A stretch of 64,000 nucleotides of DNA, taken from contig OY811992.1 of NCBI GenBank assembly GCA_963681505.1, positions 806,001 through 870,000 on the forward strand, written 5' to 3'. This document shows positions 33,896 to 44,757 of the stretch, one piece after another. The stretch is from Eunapius fragilis. Taxonomy: Eukaryota; Porifera; Demospongiae; Spongillida; Spongillidae. A program made the translations under genes and the position numbers. Under the pieces are notes generated by a model, which had not been told where the DNA came from, did no database searches, and was given only the letters and a program-made list of their open reading frames with translations. Positions within the stretch are counted from its first letter, which is position 1; each line of letters begins with the position of its first letter.

Positions 33896-34013
33896 ATGAA
33901 GTGCTGGGAAGCGGTTGTTTGGGTTCTTATGATTTGTTCTTTCTACCGCGCGGAGTGCTGGTTAACTCTTACGTAAGCGACAACGTTTGTACGATCCCCC
34001 GATCCTCCCTCCA

Positions 34014-34053
<40 letters not shown>

Positions 34054-36205
34054 CCTTTCTATCCGTTCACTACCATCTAGGTCTATTTCAGCCGCGGAAA
34101 ACGTCGGTGCCTACTGCAACGACAAGAAGCCTGCAATATATTACATCGAAAAGAGAAACAGCAATGGCTGGGTGGTCCACTTTGAAGGTGGGGGCGGGTG
34201 CTACTCCTACAGAGACTGCAATGAGCGGTACAAGCAAGGGGCCCTCAAGAACCTCATGTCACCTTCCAACTACCCTGATTCCATCCAAGGAGCCGATATC
34301 CTGTCCAGCAGCCCCGACGAGAACGATGCGCTGGCGGGCTTTTCGCAGGTCCTGGTCCCTTACTGCAGCAGCGACGGGTGGCTTGGAAGCCGCTCGCTTA
34401 ACAACACCGGGGTGGCATTTAACACTTCGGCGGACGCAGATAATTTCGCCTTTAGAGGACACGTGATATTCCAGGCCGTGGTCAACGAACTGATCACCGC
34501 GTACAATTTGACGAACTCCTCCGAACTGATCCTCGTCGGGACTAGCGCCGGCGGGATCGGAGTCCTCAACCACCTCACGTGGGTGCGCGCGCAGCTACCC
34601 GGCGCGCTAATCAAAGTCGTCGTGGACTCTGCTTGGTTCATCGAATTCGGCGGGCGTACGGTATCTTCGTGGTCCCAGCCCGGCTCTGGCGCCTTCACAA
34701 ACCTCGAGGCCTGTGGAGATACCTCGCTCGGCTACCCTTGCTGCGTCTCCGCGGCCTGTCTCTTTGACAGGGACTACCTGACAGATTCACTTAACATTCC
34801 AATATTCCTCGTTTCCAGCATCTACGACATATACGTCCTCAAGGACACGCTGACGCCCCTCCTCCAAGGCGCTGAGGCGAGCAGTGACGACCTGCTGCGG
34901 ACGTTTAACTCCTATGGCGCCCTCATGAACGCAAGCCTCGTGCAGACCGCCTCCGCCCACAGGAACGTCTCCGTGTACGCTCCGTCCTGCACGCAGCACG
35001 TGTACCTGGCTACGTCATCGCTCTGGAGTCCCACGGGAGGCATCCTCAATGCAACCGAAAATGGAACGTACCAACAGGGCGACTTCTGGCTGACTAACTA
35101 CATCTTGGAAGGCATTTGGAACAGGGTCTCCATTTCCGCCAATGGGACTGACGTAACCCTTCACGAAGCTATCGTCAAGTGGTACAAGTCCGGAGGTGAG
35201 CAGGCGGTGTACGTGGATGGCTGCAAGGGCCCCGTTTGCAGCCGGACGTGCACCAGCGGCGTGGGAATCACTCTCGGCAAACACCAGTGGTCAAGCGCCG
35301 TCAACGTCACCGTGCTAGTTCTCGTGGGGGCGGAGGTCCTGGCGTGTCTGGCGGCCAAGCTGGTGATGTACGCGACCGCCAAGTACCTGCTGCTAAGGCA
35401 GCGAGGGTTCCTCCAGAGACGCAAGGTCCGTTTCCCCCCTCCACGGCACAAGGTGGGCATATCCTGCCTCAACCTGACGTACCGGGTGGAGACGGTGAGC
35501 AGGCCTAGGCCTGCATTGCACTGCTTGTCCTCTCTGTGCTACGGTCGTGCCAAATCGAAAGTGCTCCCGGTCATACCGAGAGTGACACCTGACAGCGGGC
35601 ATGAGAGCCTCGCCGACCATGGTTGCCATAGCAACATACGACACAGTGGCAACACCATCACAACTCTACTACAAAACCATAGCTCATTGGGGACGAAGAC
35701 CATCCTGAGGGATGTAAACTTCTACGTCAACCCGGGAGAGCTGGCGGCCATAATGGGACCCTCCGGCTGTGGGAAGACCACCTTGCTAGACATACTGCTA
35801 GGTCAGAGGGCCTCCGGGAGCATTGAGGTGGGTCACTGAACACTTTTTGCATCAATGTGGGCAATGTGGTCATGTGACTATGTCCCAACACACAGTAATG
35901 GTTCACAGCACTCCTTCCCAATCTTGCCTTCCTACCTAGGGTGATGTGTTCATCAATGGGGTGCCCCTGAAATCTGTGAAGGACTGGTTTGTGCTGAATG
36001 CTGGCTACGTGAGACAACTTGCTGTTTCATTTTACTCTGAGTTGACTGTTCGCCAGAACCTACTCCTATCCATGACGATGCAGTCACAGAAAGGACAGTC
36101 CACTTACCAAATCCTTGAGCGTGTGGAACAAGTGATACAAGAGGTGACGGCCTCTTCCCTCACTTTCCTCCTCCCCACTCCTCCCCTCATTTGCTTTGCT
36201 CTTCC

Positions 36206-36239
<34 letters not shown>

Positions 36240-36259
36240 CCTCCCTCTCTCTCCCTCTC

Positions 36260-36294
<35 letters not shown>

Positions 36295-39200
36295 TTCTTT
36301 TTCTCTCTCCCTCTCTCTCTTTCTCTCTTTCTCTCACGCACGCACATTTGTATATAAACTGCTCATTTATTTATAGACTGGTTTGCAAGAAACAGCAGAT
36401 ATTAAAGTTGGAAGTGAGAGTGGTCTTGGTATCAGTGGTGGGCAGGTAGGTCTCATGGGGATGTAATGAGGGGGATATTGTGGGGTAGCCCATTATGCAA
36501 GGGTTACATTGTGATTGCAATCTCTAATTAATGCCCTGTCTAAGTACCTGTAGTTAATAATGTCCCATCCCCATGTCTTGCAGAAAAGAAAATTGGGCAT
36601 AGCAGTGCAGCTGTTGAGTATGCCAAGCATACTGTTCCTGGATGAGCCAACATCAGGCAAGGGGGTGGGGATGAGCCAACATCAGGCAAGGGGGTAGGGA
36701 TGAGTCAACATCAGGCAAGGGGGTAGGGGATGAGCCAACATCAGGCAAGGGGGTAGGGGATGAGCCAACATCAGGCAAGGGGGTAGGGATGAGCCAACAT
36801 CAGGCAAGGGGGTGGGGATGAGCCAACGTCTGGCAAGGGGGTAGGGATGAGCCAACATCAGGCAAGGGGGTAGGGATGAGCCAACATCAGGCAAGGGGGT
36901 AGGGATGAGTCAACATCAGGCAAGGGGGTGGGGATGAGCCAACGTCTGGCAAGGGGGTAGGGATGAGCCAACATCAGGCAAGGGGGTAGGGATGAGCCAA
37001 CATCAGGCAAGGGGGTGGGGATGAGCCAACATCAGGCAAGGGGGTAGGGGATGAGCCAACATCAGGCAAGGGGGCAGCGCCTTTTCGTTCATTTTTATAA
37101 CTGTTCTGGTTACTGTTTTAACCTTTCCTTTTCAGCTTGATGTGTGGTGCTTCACTCCCCTGTATGTGTAGAAATCATAACTAGTAATAACTAGTATGTC
37201 TACAAGTAGCTATTGGCTTTTTAACACCGACTCCGTGAAAATCGAATACTTTTTTTGTCGAACCCCAGCTTTGGGAAAATTAGCAATTGCCGGTAAAAGT
37301 ATATTGTTAGATAGTTCAATCATCACCAAGACGTTTGGCATTGTTTCCTGCCTTGTATCTATAGTGGACCCTAAGCTATACCCATTCTAAGTGACGCAGT
37401 TCTAAATTTATCGATGTTGAAGCGTTGTCCAGGACACTTTTCCACGGATGATTAGTGCAAGTTTTATAGTTTAGAACGAATATGAGGCCACATCAGGAAT
37501 TATGCCTTCAGTTGGCTTAGTTCATGTACAAAATTCCAGCAAAACCCACATGCAGCCTCATGCCCTGACGAGAAACAAGTGACTGTAATTGATTTCAGCC
37601 TGGGGACTAGCAGGTCTGGGTACGTGACTATTGTCCCTCATATAGTAACATGCGAAGACTTCCACATAGTTTAGACGTGAAGTTATGCATCGGATACACG
37701 TCTTTAAAAGACGTATAATGGCCTTAGTTGTATATATTTTTTTACTTCTCGTTTTTTAAAATGTTACTGCGACTTGGGGATTTCAAAACGAAGCTACTAC
37801 TGGGTAGTCCACTACTACTGGGTAGTCCACTACTACTGGGTAGTCCACTGATTGGATTCACTGCTTTATCATGCTAGTGTCAAATAACGTCCATATTGAC
37901 TCGGCTCTGGACCCACAATATTGAGCCTGCACACGACCAATATTTGGGTCTGGAGTCGAGGCATAAGGGAGTTTAGTTCTTGTTTCGTCACTAGCATGAT
38001 AGGTAGGATATTGCAGAATTTGACCGAGCCTACCCATACTAACCAAGTGAGCAAGTTTAATGTTGTGGAAAAAAGTGTCCAGTACCGCCTCTCTGCCTAA
38101 ACGAACGCTGGTTCTGGGCGGTGATTTTAAAAATTTTGTGTGGTGCATCCCATGTGGTGTTCGGTGTTCAGTGACACTCCATGTGGTGTTCAGTGTACAC
38201 TCCATGTGGTGTTCAGTTTACACTCCATGTGGTGTTTTTTGTAGGCCTGCATCCCACCCTTGAGTGTAAATGTCATCTTTTCACTGGCCCACAGGATTTA
38301 TTAAATTCTCTCTTTCTCCTTTGACCTCTTGACCTTTTGACCTCTTGCAATGAATGTTCCAACAGGTCTGGACTCAGCTTCATCACTGGAGGTACTGCAT
38401 ACTCACACACACTAACACCTGACCTCTAACGCCTAACTCTTAACCCCTAACCCTAAGGTACTGCACACACTGAGGCAGCTGGTAGACACTGGACATACCG
38501 TTATTGTTACCATCCATCAGCCAAGGAGCAAAGTCTTTCACATGTTCGACAAAATCCTCTTCCTGTCAAAGGGAAACGTCGCTTTTTTTGGTTCCCCGCT
38601 GAAGGTGTTTGAGTTCATCAACACATCTCTGCGGCAGCAAGTGACGGTGTGTGAGATGGTGGGAGGAGGATGGGGAGGAGAGGGGGAGGGGCTGATGTGG
38701 AATGTGTGTGGCTGCTGACGTAGGAAAGTGTGATCATGACTGAGGTATGTCTGCTGTTTGCTTGACAGCTGCACAAAGATGTCAACCCTGCTGATGCACT
38801 GCTTGACCTCCTGAAGAAGGAGGACCTGCAGAAACAGCTGGTCTCCTCTTACTGGGACAGTGGGGACCCTCGTTCCATAGAACAGGCAGTGAATGCTGCT
38901 AGAGCACCCGTCTCTGAGGAACCTCTGGCTACCTTTAAGTATGGTTAATTAACTGCACCGTCAATTGGTCTAATCATTTGGCTATCCCTGCAGACGTAAC
39001 CCAGGGCTATGGCAGAGGATCATGTCCCTCGAAGCACGGGCATCTCTGCGCCAATCAAAATTCAGCATTGTGTACTTGCCTATCCTGTATCCCTTATTTG
39101 GTGTGGTCCTAGGTATGTTATCTCTTATTTGATGTGGTCCTAGGTATGTTATCCCTTATTTGGTGTGGTGTTATCCCTTATTTGGTGTGGTCCTAGGTAT

Positions 39201-42200
39201 GTTATCTCTTATTTGATGTGGTCCTAGGTATGTTATCCCTTATTTGGTGTGGTGTTATCCCTTATTTGGTGTGGTCCTAGGTATGTTATCTCTTATTTGA
39301 TGTGGTCCTAGGTATGTTATCCCTTATTTGGTGTGGTGTTATCCCTTATTTGGTGTGGTCCTAGGTATGTTATCCCTTATTTGGTGTGGTCCTAGGTATG
39401 TTATCCCTTATTTGGTGTGGTCCTAGGTATGTTATCCCTTATTTGGTGTGGTCCTAGATATGTTGCCGATTTTTTTGTCCTATAGCATTGGGATTTAATT
39501 ATGGAAGGATACCTAGCGACAGATGACTTATTTAATCTATGTCATGATTGCATTAAGCGATTCGATAGAAATGTGTAGCTCTAGTCATAGTAACAGCCAA
39601 CTATGAAGTATCAGCTTCATTATGAAACTATGAAGGGGGGTGGGGGGGGGGTCGGAACAGTGGAAAATTACAGCAATTCATTGCATATTTGTGGCCCGGT
39701 ATAAGTAAACGTTGGTTGCTGTTGCGTAATTGTCATCATCCTCAAAACATTTTAAATGCACGTCAACATCTATGATGCAATCACGATGTGGTCAAATGCT
39801 ATGGGCGCACAGTCATTACCGTGTCTATTTTTAGCCATTATGCAACTCGGACACCGTCTATAAGTTGAGGTTCAAAACATTGCATTTCTATTTAAGCTTC
39901 AGTAACAAAAGAAGGAACATGTTCAAGGCAGTGTGTCAGCACAATAAAGCACTCACTTACAACACCAAATGGTAAATAAATACTCATAACCTAAGCTATT
40001 CATTTGTCTGGAGCCTTGCTGGTTGATGTTCATTTTTAATGATATTCACAACATGGGTCAAATTCCCAGGAACTACTAACATGGTTGTTGATAACAAGGG
40101 GCCTAGCATTTTGCATGGTTTTTTGTCGAGGCGCCTTTGTGTCAACAAAGGAATAGGGCTGATAGGGCTGAACGACAAGCTAAAATACCTCAAGAGCCAA
40201 GAACAAGTATTAAAAGATCGGGTCATCAGAAGCGTGCAAAGCAAAAGCCCATGCTCCCTAATCATTAAGATAGAGTAAACAAATAAATAAATAAACATTC
40301 TGTAACAAGAAAGTTGATGGGATATAGGAATTGAAGGCGAGGAAACAAATTTTAACAGGCCTCATTTAGTAGGTCTATATGGTTGGCTAAAGCTTGTGTG
40401 CTGGATACAAGGTCTGTAAAAAATTGTTTCACTCACCCTTCTTCCTGGTTCAAGCCTTTGTTCCCTTTCTTTTTATACCTACCTTCAAAGGGTAAGACCC
40501 TGTTATAACATTAGACTGACTACTAGTGTATATTTTGGCATAATTTGCATTTTTACCCTACCTCCACCTCCTCTCCCTCTCCTCTCCCTCACACAAAGGC
40601 ACAACATATTACAACACCACTGCCATCCAAGTACTGTCTCTCACGTGTGTCCTGTGCTGTTCAAGTGCCCTGTTCATGAGTGGTATAGTCATGAACCTGC
40701 TCCTTGAACCACTGAAGATATTCCACCTTGAGTATGCTGACGGCATTGCTTACTGCTATGACATCATTTTCCACGTATTTGTGAGGATGACAGCTGTGTC
40801 ACTCCTCCCCCTCCTTGTGTGCTTCCTCATTGTATCTGGGCTCGTCTATCATATCTTTGGTTCAGCTTCATTCATGTCCATCCTCCTCATCTTCCTTGCT
40901 GACAACCAGGTGTGGGTGGCCCTCTTCATCGTGATAGGGGTTCTCTTTCCCCCTGGAGCGGCCAGGATATGTGCTGTCATGTCTGCCATTGGTGGCTTTT
41001 TCTGCGGGTTCATCGTTCCCGTAACAGTAATGCCCGCCTATTACAAGTGGATAACGTACATTAACCCCTCCTTCTACGCGTACTCTGCCATAGGGGCCAT
41101 TGTTCTAAGTGAGAGGGAACAGCTGGACTGTGGTAAGGACTCTAAGCTCGAGTGCTTTTCGGAGTCAGGACTTTCTCTGTTGAAGAGTTTTGGTCTTGAG
41201 TATACCAACCCTTTCATGAACCTGCTGATAATGGCAGCCATGACGGTGACCCTGTTGGTGCTAGCTGTGGTGGTGCTGATGTGTAGGATGAGGTATCAGA
41301 GCTTCCAGCTGTACTCCTGGCTGGCTAGGCTGTGGGTGGGCTGCCGTGGAAACTGTGGGAGGTGAGTCATTGTACATTATTGTCTGTCCCGAGGGACATT
41401 TTTAAATGTGGACTTTATCATGCGTCCTATTCACAGGAAAAAATGTCTAGGCTGGGTTTTTCAAACAACATCCAGGGTAAAAGGCAGCATGCTGAGTGCT
41501 TTCCCATCCTGGAGTTGAGCATCCAGATTGGGAAGAACATATAAACCATCCTGGTTTTGTGGAACAATAATCCCTGGTCGTTGTTCCACAAAACCAGGAT
41601 AGTTCTTATGCTTTTCACCATACATACTGGATGCTCGATTTCAGGATGGGAAAGACTGAACGTGTTGTGTTTTGGATTTAAACCACCCAGTGTTTTGTTC
41701 AGCCTAGACGTTTTCTTCCTGTGAATATCATTAGAAAACCATTTAATCTCTAGTGTCTAGCACGTTTAAGGCCCACCACACACGGAGCAATATCGCTGGC
41801 GATTCCGAGATTTCTTTTCTTTTTTTCCATAATTTATTAGACTACAAACAAAATACGGACAAAACGCAGGTATTGCCGGCAATATCGCCCTGTGTGTGCC
41901 GGGCCTTAGGACTAATTTAAAAGTGCTGATCAATGAGGATAGGTTTGAAAGTTTGATCTAAGCCGTACTGTTGTGTTCAGATACATCTTGTTATGTGAGA
42001 CAATTGTGTGGTGGCTAGTGTCTGTGATTAGGACTGGTCAAGTGTGTCCAGACCTCTGAAGGTACCGGGTATGTGGGATCAGCTTACCTAGTGCCCATGT
42101 GCAGAGCGCTGTGGGGATCATGGGGGATCCATTACACCCTTGTGTGGATCATGGGACATCCATTACACCCTTGTGGGGATCATGGGGGATCCATTACACC

Positions 42201-44757
42201 CTTGTGTGGATCATGGGGGATCCATTACACCCTTGTGGGGATCATGGGGGATCCATTACACCCTTGTGTGGATCATGGGGGATCCATTACACCCTTGTGG
42301 GGATCATGGGGGATCCATTACACCCTTGTGTGGATCATGGGGGATCCATTACACCCTTGTGTGGATCATGGGGGATCCATTACACCCTTGTGGGGATCAT
42401 GGGGGATCCATTACACCCTTGTGGGGATCATGGGGGATCCATTACACCCTTGTGTGGATCATGGGGGATCCATTACACCCTTGTGGGGATCATGGGGGAT
42501 CCATTACACCCTTGTGGGGATCATGGGGCATCCATTACACCCTTGTGGGGATCATGGGGCATCCATTACACCCTTGTGTGGATCATGGGGGATCCATTAC
42601 ACCCTTGTGGGGATCATGGGGGATCCATTACACCCTTGTGTGGATCATGGGGCATCCATTACACCCTTGTGGGAATCATGGGGGATCCATTACACCCTTG
42701 TGTGGATCATGGGGCATCCATTACACCCTTGTGTGGATCATGGGGGATCCATTACACCCTTGTGGGGATCATGGGGGATCCATTACACCCTTGTGGGGAT
42801 CATGGGGGATCCATTACACCCTTGTGGGGATCATGGGGCATCCATTACACCCTTGTGGGGATCATGGAGCATCCATTACACCCTTGTGGGGATCATGGGG
42901 CATCCATTACACCCTTGTGTGGATCATGGGGCATCCATTACACCCTTGTGTGGATCATGGGGGATCCATTACACCCTTGTGTGGATCATGGGGGATCCAT
43001 TACACCCTTGTGTGGATCATGGGGCATCCATTACACCCTTGTGGGAATCATGGGGGATCCATTACACCCTTGTGTGGATCATGGGGCATCCATTACACCC
43101 TTGTGGGGATCATGGGGGATCCATTACACCCTTGTGGGGATCATGGGGCATCCATTACACCCTTGTGGGGATCATGGGGCATCCATTACACCCTTGTGGG
43201 GATCATGGGGCATCCATTACACCCTTGTGGGGATCATGGGGCATCCATTACACCCTTGTGTGGATCATGGGGCATCCATTACACCCTTGTGTGGATCATG
43301 GGGCATCCATTACACCCTTGTGGGGATCATGGGGCATCCATTACACCCTTGTGGGGATCATGGGGCATCCATTACACCCTTGTGTGGATCATGGGGCATC
43401 CATTACACCCTTGTGTGGATCATGGGGCATCCATTACACCCTTGTGGGGATCATGGGGGATCCATTACACCCTTGTGTGGATCATGGGGCATCCATTACA
43501 CCCTTGTGTGGATCATGGGGGATCCATTACACCCTTGCACAAGTACAAATAGACGTTTTATTGACTGCCTTGCGTAGTGTACATGTACTTGTTGCTTGCA
43601 GCTCAAATGAATATTAGTAAAAGTTACGTTTCACAAAACTTATTAAATTGCGGGCACAAGTTGGCCTGTTTATGGCGTGTGTGTGTGTGTGTGTGTGTAC
43701 TAAGCATACTCATGAATATGGTTGGATAAACATATGCTGCATTTTCACACCCTCCTCCTCCACACTATATTCACTCAACCTTTCCCTCACTAAGTGTAGG
43801 TTTGCGTGAGAGCATGTGATTATGTACATGATCCCTTCATGATGGTGATCCCTTCATGATGGTGATCCCTTCATGATGGTGATCCCTTCATGATGGTGAT
43901 CCCTTCATGATGGTGATCACTTTATGATGGTGATCACTTTATGATGGTGATCCCTTCATGATGGTGATCCTTTCATGATGGTGACCCCTTCTTGATGGTA
44001 ACCCCTTCATGATGGTGATCCCCTTCATGATGGTGATCCCTTCATGATGGTAACCCCTTCATGATGGTGATCCCTTCTTGTGTTCCATAGTACACCCAGC
44101 ACCGGCGATGTGTTTGACCACACCCATCAGCTCACCACACATGTCAGGTGCCCGGCTCAATTCCTTGCAAACGGCGACGCCCATGTGATTTTCAGCGGAG
44201 AAGGGGAGGAGATGGGGGAGGAGACAGACGCACCCCCACTGGTAGGCAGGGGCAGGCTGCTCAGTGATCCCCGCGTACCCCCTCGGAGACTAACATCCAA
44301 GCTAGACCCATCGAACCAATCCGAAGTGGTCATTGTATTGGATGAGGAGGAAAGACTTAGGCTCACGGACCAGAAGATAAGGGAGAGAAGGGAACGTATG
44401 AACAACGAGATACGACGCCTGAAACACTTCAACAACATCATGGGTGGTAAGGGCATTCCTAATGCTTCAGTCAATGGCCACCCCCAAACCAGTGGCGAGG
44501 GTTGCCTTGGGAGGTCTATGGGCCTATCACAATTCCCCCGGGGGCCAGCCATGGTGCATCGCAGCTCGAGTGTGGACCCTTCAGTCCCGAGCCAACGCCA
44601 GGCAGACCTTGAAGCATCGGGGTATGCACTGCAGCCCTTACCTGAGAAGGATATGCCTGTGCTCGATGAAGGGTCTGGGAACCTGGAAAGCCTGGATCTC
44701 AATAGCATCCCTGAGAATGAGGTCAACCTCAGTGACTATGACGACAATGTTGATTAA
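33896..44757 (+). CDS. Secreted pectinacetylesterase/NOTUM-like hydrolase fused to ABCG half-transporter
   Basis: Exons 33896-33972, 34081-35827, 35940-36143, 36377-36445, 36584-36656, 38366-38391, 38458-38640 (or 38646), 38769-38938, 38994-39112, 40599-41361, 44091-44757; 1365 residues. A signal peptide (MKCWEAVVWVLMICSFY) leads into a PAE/NOTUM-type alpha/beta hydrolase (about 30-420) with EGGGGCY, VPYCSSDGWLG, nucleophile GTSAGG (Ser about 179), Asp in SSIYDIY (about 273) and His in SCTQHVYL (about 332). A membrane helix (about 433-460) follows. The ABC ATPase has Walker A GPSGCGKTT (about 584), Q-loop GYVRQ, signature ISGGQ, Walker B ILFLDEPTSGLDS and H-loop VTIHQPRS. An ABCG-type membrane domain with hydrophobic spans is in exon 10, and a hydrophilic, coiled-coil-like cytosolic tail (LTDQKIRERRERMNNEIRR) ends the protein. 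Topology predicts an extracellular hydrolase tethered to a transporter. Half-transporters dimerise; partner and substrate are unknown. Confidence 0.88.
36180..36340. repeat. (CT)n low-complexity tract
   Basis: CTCTCT/CCCTCTCT run in an intron of the hydrolase-ABCG gene. Confidence 0.95.
36641..37078 (+). repeat. 29-30-bp array copying Walker-B exon end and GC donor, 15 copies
   Basis: The first copy is the true end of exon 36584-36656 (gatgagccaacatcag) plus the intron start gcaaggggg. Fourteen further copies repeat the exon end (encoding DEPTS) and the GC-type donor. Confidence 0.93.
37868..38000. repeat. About 130-bp foldback element
   Basis: Ends atcatgctagtg and cactagcatgat are exact inverted repeats. 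Internal segments ctcggctctggaccc and gggtctggagtcgag also pair imperfectly. Confidence 0.7.
39085..39465 (+). repeat. About 30-bp array copying an exon end and donor
   Basis: The end of exon 38994-39112 (cttatttggtgtggtcctag) and its donor gtatgtta recur about nine times. Some copies drop the donor part, and the last reads gatatg. Confidence 0.92.
41430..41729. repeat. 300-bp long inverted repeat (foldback element)
   Basis: Left arm from attcacaggaaaaaatgtct, right arm ending tttcttcctgtgaatatc. The centre (about 41573) pairs aaccatcctggttttgtgg with ccacaaaaccaggatagtt. Pairing runs over nearly all of both arms. Confidence 0.85.
41767..41908. mobile_element. 142-bp MITE-like element
   Basis: Terminal inverted repeats of about 30 bp: taaggcccaccacacacgg at the left and ctgtgtgtgccgggcctta at the right, with gcaatatcgc on both inner sides. 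No coding capacity. Confidence 0.75.
42115..43535. repeat. 31-bp minisatellite, about 46 copies
   Basis: Unit core ggggatccattacacccttg in the last intron of the hydrolase-ABCG gene. As 31 is not a multiple of three and the unit lacks plus-strand stops, all three plus frames stay open for about 500 codons; these are artefacts. Confidence 0.97.
43825..44080. repeat. 17-bp minisatellite
   Basis: About 14 copies of gatggtgatcccttcat, ending just before the last acceptor of the gene. Confidence 0.92.

Follow-up and report, generated by a model that had tools for sequence, protein, structure and literature searches.

The locus analysed here raises the question of whether a PAE-type esterase and an ABCG transporter are encoded as one polypeptide in the sponge Eunapius fragilis and, if so, what such a protein might do. 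The window (the whole stretch of 64,000 nucleotides that was analysed) contains a stop-free frame of 620 amino acids at 33977-35839 of the forward strand, according to its list of open reading frames.

Gene structure and domain content

A splice model derived from the genomic DNA places this frame in a gene of 11 exons (33896-44757, +) with a product of 1365 amino acids. The phases agree across all 11 exons; nine of the ten introns are of GT-AG type and the one after exon 5 is of GC-AG type. Exon 1 (33896-33972) carries the start codon and a hydrophobic, signal-peptide-like stretch (residues 1-25), and the start of the protein model P0114 is similar to it by eye. The single open exon 2 (34081-35827) is common to the esterase (Ser181, Asp275, His332), the membrane helix (residues 437-455), the first NBD strand, the linker and Walker A at residue 585, as judged from the open frame, the Pfam matches to PAE and ABC_tran and the residues themselves. 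The chance of 582 stop-free codons is ~7e-13 in DNA of even composition. The rest of the NBD is distributed over the following exons: the Q-loop lies in exon 3 (35940-36143), the signature GISGGQ in exon 4 (36377-36445), Walker B (LFLDEPTS) together with the GC donor in exon 5 (36584-36656), the D-loop GLDSASSLE in exon 6 (38366-38391; 26 nt, in agreement with DEPTSGLDASSSLE of P0002) and the H-loop TIHQPR in exon 7 (38458-38640). Exon 8 (38769-38938) leads from the NBD to the ABCG membrane domain, whose first helix is encoded by exon 9 (38994-39112) and the remainder by exon 10 (40599-41361). Exon 11 (44091-44757) encodes the tail, presumably cytosolic, with the stop codon at 44755-44757; it has a counterpart, by eye, in the similar tail of P0001. 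All exons are on the forward strand. Beyond exon 2 they rest on the splice model, supplemented by Pfam for exons 5 and 10 and by homology pieces for exons 3, 4 and 7-10.

The Pfam search of the translated sequence gives PAE (PF03283) in frame at residues 37-353 (profile positions 14-331 of 355, E 9.3e-46, 157 bits vs a curated cut-off of 26.6) and, in the same frame, the beginning of ABC_tran corresponding to the first third of the ATPase (E 3.2e-10). The triad residues and the helix are followed by Walker A at 585, the signature at 694 and Walker B at 715 (motifs GPSGCGKTT, GISGGQ and LFLDEP, then TIHQPR). Past the NBD come the hydrophobic stretches of the ABCG membrane domain (within residues 873-1116) and a tail of ~220 residues, so that the NBD precedes the membrane domain within a single chain, which is the ABCG order. 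The best NCBIfam match of the ABC half is TIGR00955 (residues 555-1122, E 5.5e-84), its 282.9 bits being below the subfamily cut-off of 736. For ABC2_membrane, exon 10 alone scores 25.4 bits vs a cut-off of 26.9; this cut-off is passed by 5 of 7 homologues (P0001, P0002, P0004, P0005 and P0006), with P0008 and P0009 below it. The initial annotation had read a signal peptide, an intact-looking Ser-Asp-His hydrolase, a membrane helix, an ABC ATPase with its motifs and an ABCG membrane domain in one polypeptide. Each of these elements, the signal peptide as a signal-peptide-like start, was located in the exon model, which also agrees to the base with the proposed gene span and with the proposed limits of exon 2.

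Several features of the introns deserve mention. An in-phase GT donor lies 39 nt upstream of the GC donor of exon 5 (36618-36657), and its use would drop 13 residues including Walker B. P0001, an Ephydatia-type model, has exactly the join of this upstream donor, which may reflect either an annotation habit or a splice switch. Minisatellites are present in two introns, at 36640-37074 (29 bp x 14.9) and 39088-39464 (31 bp x 13); the first copy of each starts within the upstream exon and covers the end of that exon together with the splice donor. Donor-like sequence therefore occurs many times over. Intron 10 harbors a 31-bp minisatellite of 46 copies (42110-43537), which is open in all three forward frames and gives repetitive ORFs of ~500 aa.

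P0114, a 539-aa model that bears the name Ephydatia muelleri and has the PAE domain only, corresponds by eye to exons 1 and 2 (76% identity in the esterase part); it includes the helix and stops short of Walker A, within the linker. An enzyme-only product is therefore possible: alternative splicing or choice of the 3' end would yield an anchored enzyme without the pump besides the full protein. Such a pair of products seems improbable to us. In a comparison by eye with P0001, the C-terminal residues of the gene model P0114 look like the linker translated in a shifted frame, and the metagenome relative P0115 (74% identity) continues through Walker A.

A family in the host genome and in other animals

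PF03283 matches were found in the host genome (219 Mb, 24 contigs) on contigs C22, C15, C2, C1 and C16. With the window protein and P0005 as tblastn queries, collinear PAE, ATPase and membrane-domain pieces were located once on C2, twice on C16 and four times on C1, with linker pieces in most of them. The fusion loci of the host genome are thus eight on four contigs, the window locus included. These collinear loci rule out a lone chimera; the protein is instead a member of a conserved multigene family, which also has homologues in sponges and cnidarians. Host ABC genes at C12, C19 and C1 17.1 Mb were considered as ABCG and rejected by eye.

The dN/dS values of the C1 copies were estimated by the Nei-Gojobori method on coding pieces, with few changes per pair, and are 0.00-0.09 for the PAE pieces (3 pairs among three copies; the fourth, with a split PAE, was omitted). 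They reach 0.07-0.14 in the Q-loop exon (5 pairs, the sixth pair being identical), 0.00-0.34 in the exon with Walker B (6 pairs) and 0.00-0.15 in the membrane domain (6 pairs). Judging from these sequences, both halves look to be under purifying selection in the tandem C1 paralogues.

The full-length protein search, in which just the 7994 candidates with most shared words were scored, gave 74 proteins, 8 of them with PAE and an ABC or ABC2 domain. The profile search gave 44, with PAE and ABC_tran in 26 and PAE and ABC2_membrane in 1 more. Among the 120 listed of 356 matches to the PAE-only profile, 72 have PAE and ABC_tran and 48 have PAE alone; many of the latter we take to be fragments of contigs. 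The fused proteins come from corals (Oculina patagonica, Porites evermanni, Stylophora pistillata, Montipora capricornis), from the hydrozoan Clytia hemisphaerica and from the sponges Geodia barretti, Oscarella lobularis and Corticium candelabrum. Taxonomy look-up assigns Corticium to Homoscleromorpha, Clytia to Hydrozoa, Geodia to Demospongiae and Oculina to Scleractinia. The same domain order, for which the initial annotation proposed a search in other sponges and early animals, is therefore present in demosponges and homoscleromorphs, in stony corals and in a hydrozoan, as well as in a deep branch, P0095-P0097, of single long ORFs, one of them with intein-like inserts. We assign the fused P0001 to Ephydatia muelleri from stretches that are shared by eye and from the style of its id, and the ids of P0083 and P0088 presumably point to Sycon ciliatum. 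The fused P0004 is labelled as a complete ORF from a single assembled transcript. The distances to the window protein are alike in both halves (28-45% for PAE and 25-52% for the ABC region, P0001 set apart). Bilaterian names are absent from the fused rows among the matches listed, which is weak evidence because the search requires shared five-residue words.

In the 3115-aa metagenome protein P0096, Walker A is interrupted by an intein-like insert (Pfam Hom_end_hint and Hom_end), and another insert follows the ABC signature, as judged by eye. A viral origin of the metagenome members was considered and rejected for P0076, the query of one scan of viral contigs that gave no relative. Plasmids yielded just ABC fragments, in 2 records. 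Two short patterns scanned against bacterial and archaeal contigs brought up one PAE relative, L027; in the phylum of its genome, 59 of 290 sampled genomes have stand-alone PAE.

That the fusion is an artefact of the gene model or the assembly is extremely unlikely. The model was read from genomic DNA alone and needs a GC donor for one intron; however, both parts lie in one open exon, as had been argued at the outset, and the eight loci and many species concur, the order of domains in paralogues and homologues being identical. The initial annotation knew of no described animal hydrolase-ABCG chimera. The literature agrees, since no paper on a PAE-ABCG fusion was found, by title and opening abstract, among the matches listed from the open-licence literature (most subscription-journal papers and bioRxiv lie outside it). 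The architecture itself, on the other hand, is already deposited in protein databases under such names as 'uncharacterized protein', 'ABC transporter G family member 8' (P0082) and 'notum-like' (P0009). The PAE-ABCG fusion is thus a real protein family, apparently undescribed in the open-licence literature among those matches, and the last two names should be taken as a warning that an annotation may describe one half only.

Relation of the esterase to NOTUM

The solved structures nearest to the esterase are those of NOTUM (E 3.8e-27, by profile E 2.2e-46). NOTUM (PDB 4uyz, 4uyu) resembles the fusion in its PAE family membership, Ser-Asp-His triad and alignable Cys-rich C-terminal end. In addition, the PF03283 matches listed for the host genome comprise the C15 gene and the eight fusions, which leaves no stand-alone NOTUM among them. 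Both observations speak for the fusion being a membrane-anchored Wnt depalmitoleoylase that would take the role of NOTUM in sponges and cnidarians, the ABC half serving either to anchor the enzyme or to export the freed lipid.

The stand-alone PAE of the host (C15:381686-383093) also has Ser, Asp and His in the triad columns. It differs from the fusion in that the 10 kb of sequence retrieved with it show no ABC match and in having an EGGGWC motif at the oxyanion glycines; it presumably resembles plant pectin acetylesterases.

The esterase tree was built from 49 rows: 25 of 33 family rows (P0001, P0008, P0077-P0079, P0091, P0093 and P0094 were excluded), three trematode NOTUMs, the C15 PAE and 20 bacterial rows (L027 and 19 loci from its phylum). 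P0009, which was retained, has no ABC_tran match, yet aligns across part of the ABC region. All 25 family rows fall into a single clade (95/87; 94% of bootstrap trees), next to which NOTUM, C15 and one bacterial protein are grouped, in a tree with two long bacterial rows, one family row of odd composition and NOTUM represented by the three trematode rows. The ABC tree (22 of 33 family rows and 10 others) likewise unites the fusion rows (88/99; 90% of bootstrap trees), with a poor outgroup of long, ill-suited rows in which the C12 host gene stayed; named animal ABCG1/2/5/8 are absent from this tree. The trematode NOTUMs (P0108-P0110) have PAE only, whereas the fusion family adds the ABCG pump. 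NOTUM is a soluble secreted enzyme without a membrane domain; in the window protein, by contrast, the esterase is followed by the helix at 437-455 and the ABCG half.

The triad alignment comprised 152 fusion-type rows (32 family rows and the 120 listed PAE-profile rows, PAE-only rows included). All three columns are filled in 151 of them and Ser, Asp and His are retained in 148 of the 151. The exceptions are P0087 (Gly for Ser), P0001 (Lys for Ser, in a damaged model) and P0097 (Asn for His), although P0097 reads CFNHMYL in the other alignment. Among 123 filled rows, the column of NOTUM Gly126, a position of the oxyanion hole, contains Gly in 72 and Ser in 51, and that of Gly127 contains Gly in all 123. 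The column of Trp128 contains Gly in 112 rows (the window protein among them), Ser in 7, other residues in 4 and Trp in none, as opposed to Trp in all three trematode NOTUMs. Trp128 is an oxyanion and pocket residue of NOTUM (PMC8172013). Moreover, Clytia has the fusion protein P0080 and is reported to have two Notum genes listed with signal peptides (PMC4169000), although P0080 may be one of those two.

Orthology to NOTUM is rejected because of the separate clade, with NOTUM sampled from trematodes only, and the Trp128 column: by the tests run the esterase belongs to the PAE family in a clade of its own. The description 'NOTUM-type' given initially thus holds for the family and for the nearest solved structures and fails for the position outside the sampled NOTUMs and the absence of Trp128. 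On these sequence grounds palmitoleoyl-Wnt is probably not the substrate, and we consider a Wnt depalmitoleoylase quite unlikely.

Topology and possible function

In 17 of the 33 family rows, N-glycosylation sequons occur at 1.84 per 100 aa before the helix vs 0.56 after it, and the charge after the helix is more positive in 13 of the 17, less positive in 3 and equal in 1. This asymmetry suggests that the esterase is outside and the ATPase inside the cell. ABCG proteins work as dimers, often exporting lipids, sterols or drugs. From this topology and this property we tentatively favour, at a little less than an even chance, an ABCG half-transporter with a tethered ectoenzyme that deacylates its own exported cargo. 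The protein would dimerise in the ABCG manner, with the esterase on the outer face of the membrane. The pump would export an amphipathic ester (an acylated lipid, sterol ester, acetylated glycoside or similar), from which the tethered esterase would strip the acyl group as the cargo emerges, and deacylation might make export irreversible or activate the product. Processing of a ligand at the mouth of its own transporter, as suggested initially, is plausible. Domains, motifs and their conservation are seen in the sequences, and the architecture as a single protein is near certain; dimer, direction, coupling and substrate are what we infer.

Against this coupling speaks the loss of the motif of one activity in some members. 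P0087 is devoid of the catalytic Ser, and the coral proteins P0089, P0090 and P0092 have NLTELQ, NLTKLQ or NFTELQ in place of LSGGQ while the triad, Walker A and Walker B are intact. Enzyme and pump can therefore part ways, or the members pair: the signature-less subgroup could form heterodimers like those of ABCG5/8 or be used as enzyme only. Further points against our reading are the P0114 model, the exceptions to the charge asymmetry (3 of 17 rows, with 1 more equal) and Ser at the Gly126 position in 51 of 123 filled rows.

The retention of the triad in these corals is also consistent with a tethered digestive or detoxifying ectoenzyme whose substrates come from outside (acetylated glycans of dietary or algal origin, toxins). 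The ABC half would then be an efflux pump working independently or a mere anchor, and fusion would just co-localise the two. The lineage-specific expansion, seen in the eight host loci and in neighbouring locus tags in Oculina, is consistent with this too. However, the halves are kept together across sponges and cnidarians, each forming one clade, and in the C1 paralogues the ABC pieces look to be under purifying selection, which is more than a mere anchor would need. We regard the ectoenzyme as rather unlikely.

The deacylating transporter can be extended to a wider statement, which is doubtful at present: that export-coupled ectoesterases, ABCG pumps deacylating their own cargo, arose once before the split of sponges and cnidarians, perhaps before animals (P0095-P0097 could be protist), that they are the sole NOTUM-like esterase family of the host sponge, and that some signature-less coral members with Walker motifs may form ABCG5/8-like heterodimers.

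The fusion shares with ABCG half-transporters (ABCG1, ABCG2, ABCG5/8; TIGR00955) the NBD before the membrane domain, Walker A, signature, Walker B and H-loop, and has beyond them a signal-peptide-like start, an enzyme domain, an extra helix and a variable insertion that separates the first NBD strand from Walker A. Yeast Adp1 and plant proteins of the ABCG24/28 type also consist of an N-terminal ectodomain, an extra helix and an ABCG half, a layout akin to the fusion when likened by description only; we know of no hydrolase in their ectodomains. As far as the open-licence matches listed show, the fusion would be an undescribed kind of ABCG transporter in sponges and cnidarians, with enzyme and pump in one chain. 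It would allow a direct test of whether a transporter is made directional or signalling-competent by chemical alteration of the cargo at its exit, and it bears on the removal of acyl esters in early animals beyond Wnt.

The C-termini of the family differ: P0002, P0003 and P0007 end with TRF, TRF and TTF, which we take to resemble PDZ-binding ends, and the window protein ends with DNVD.
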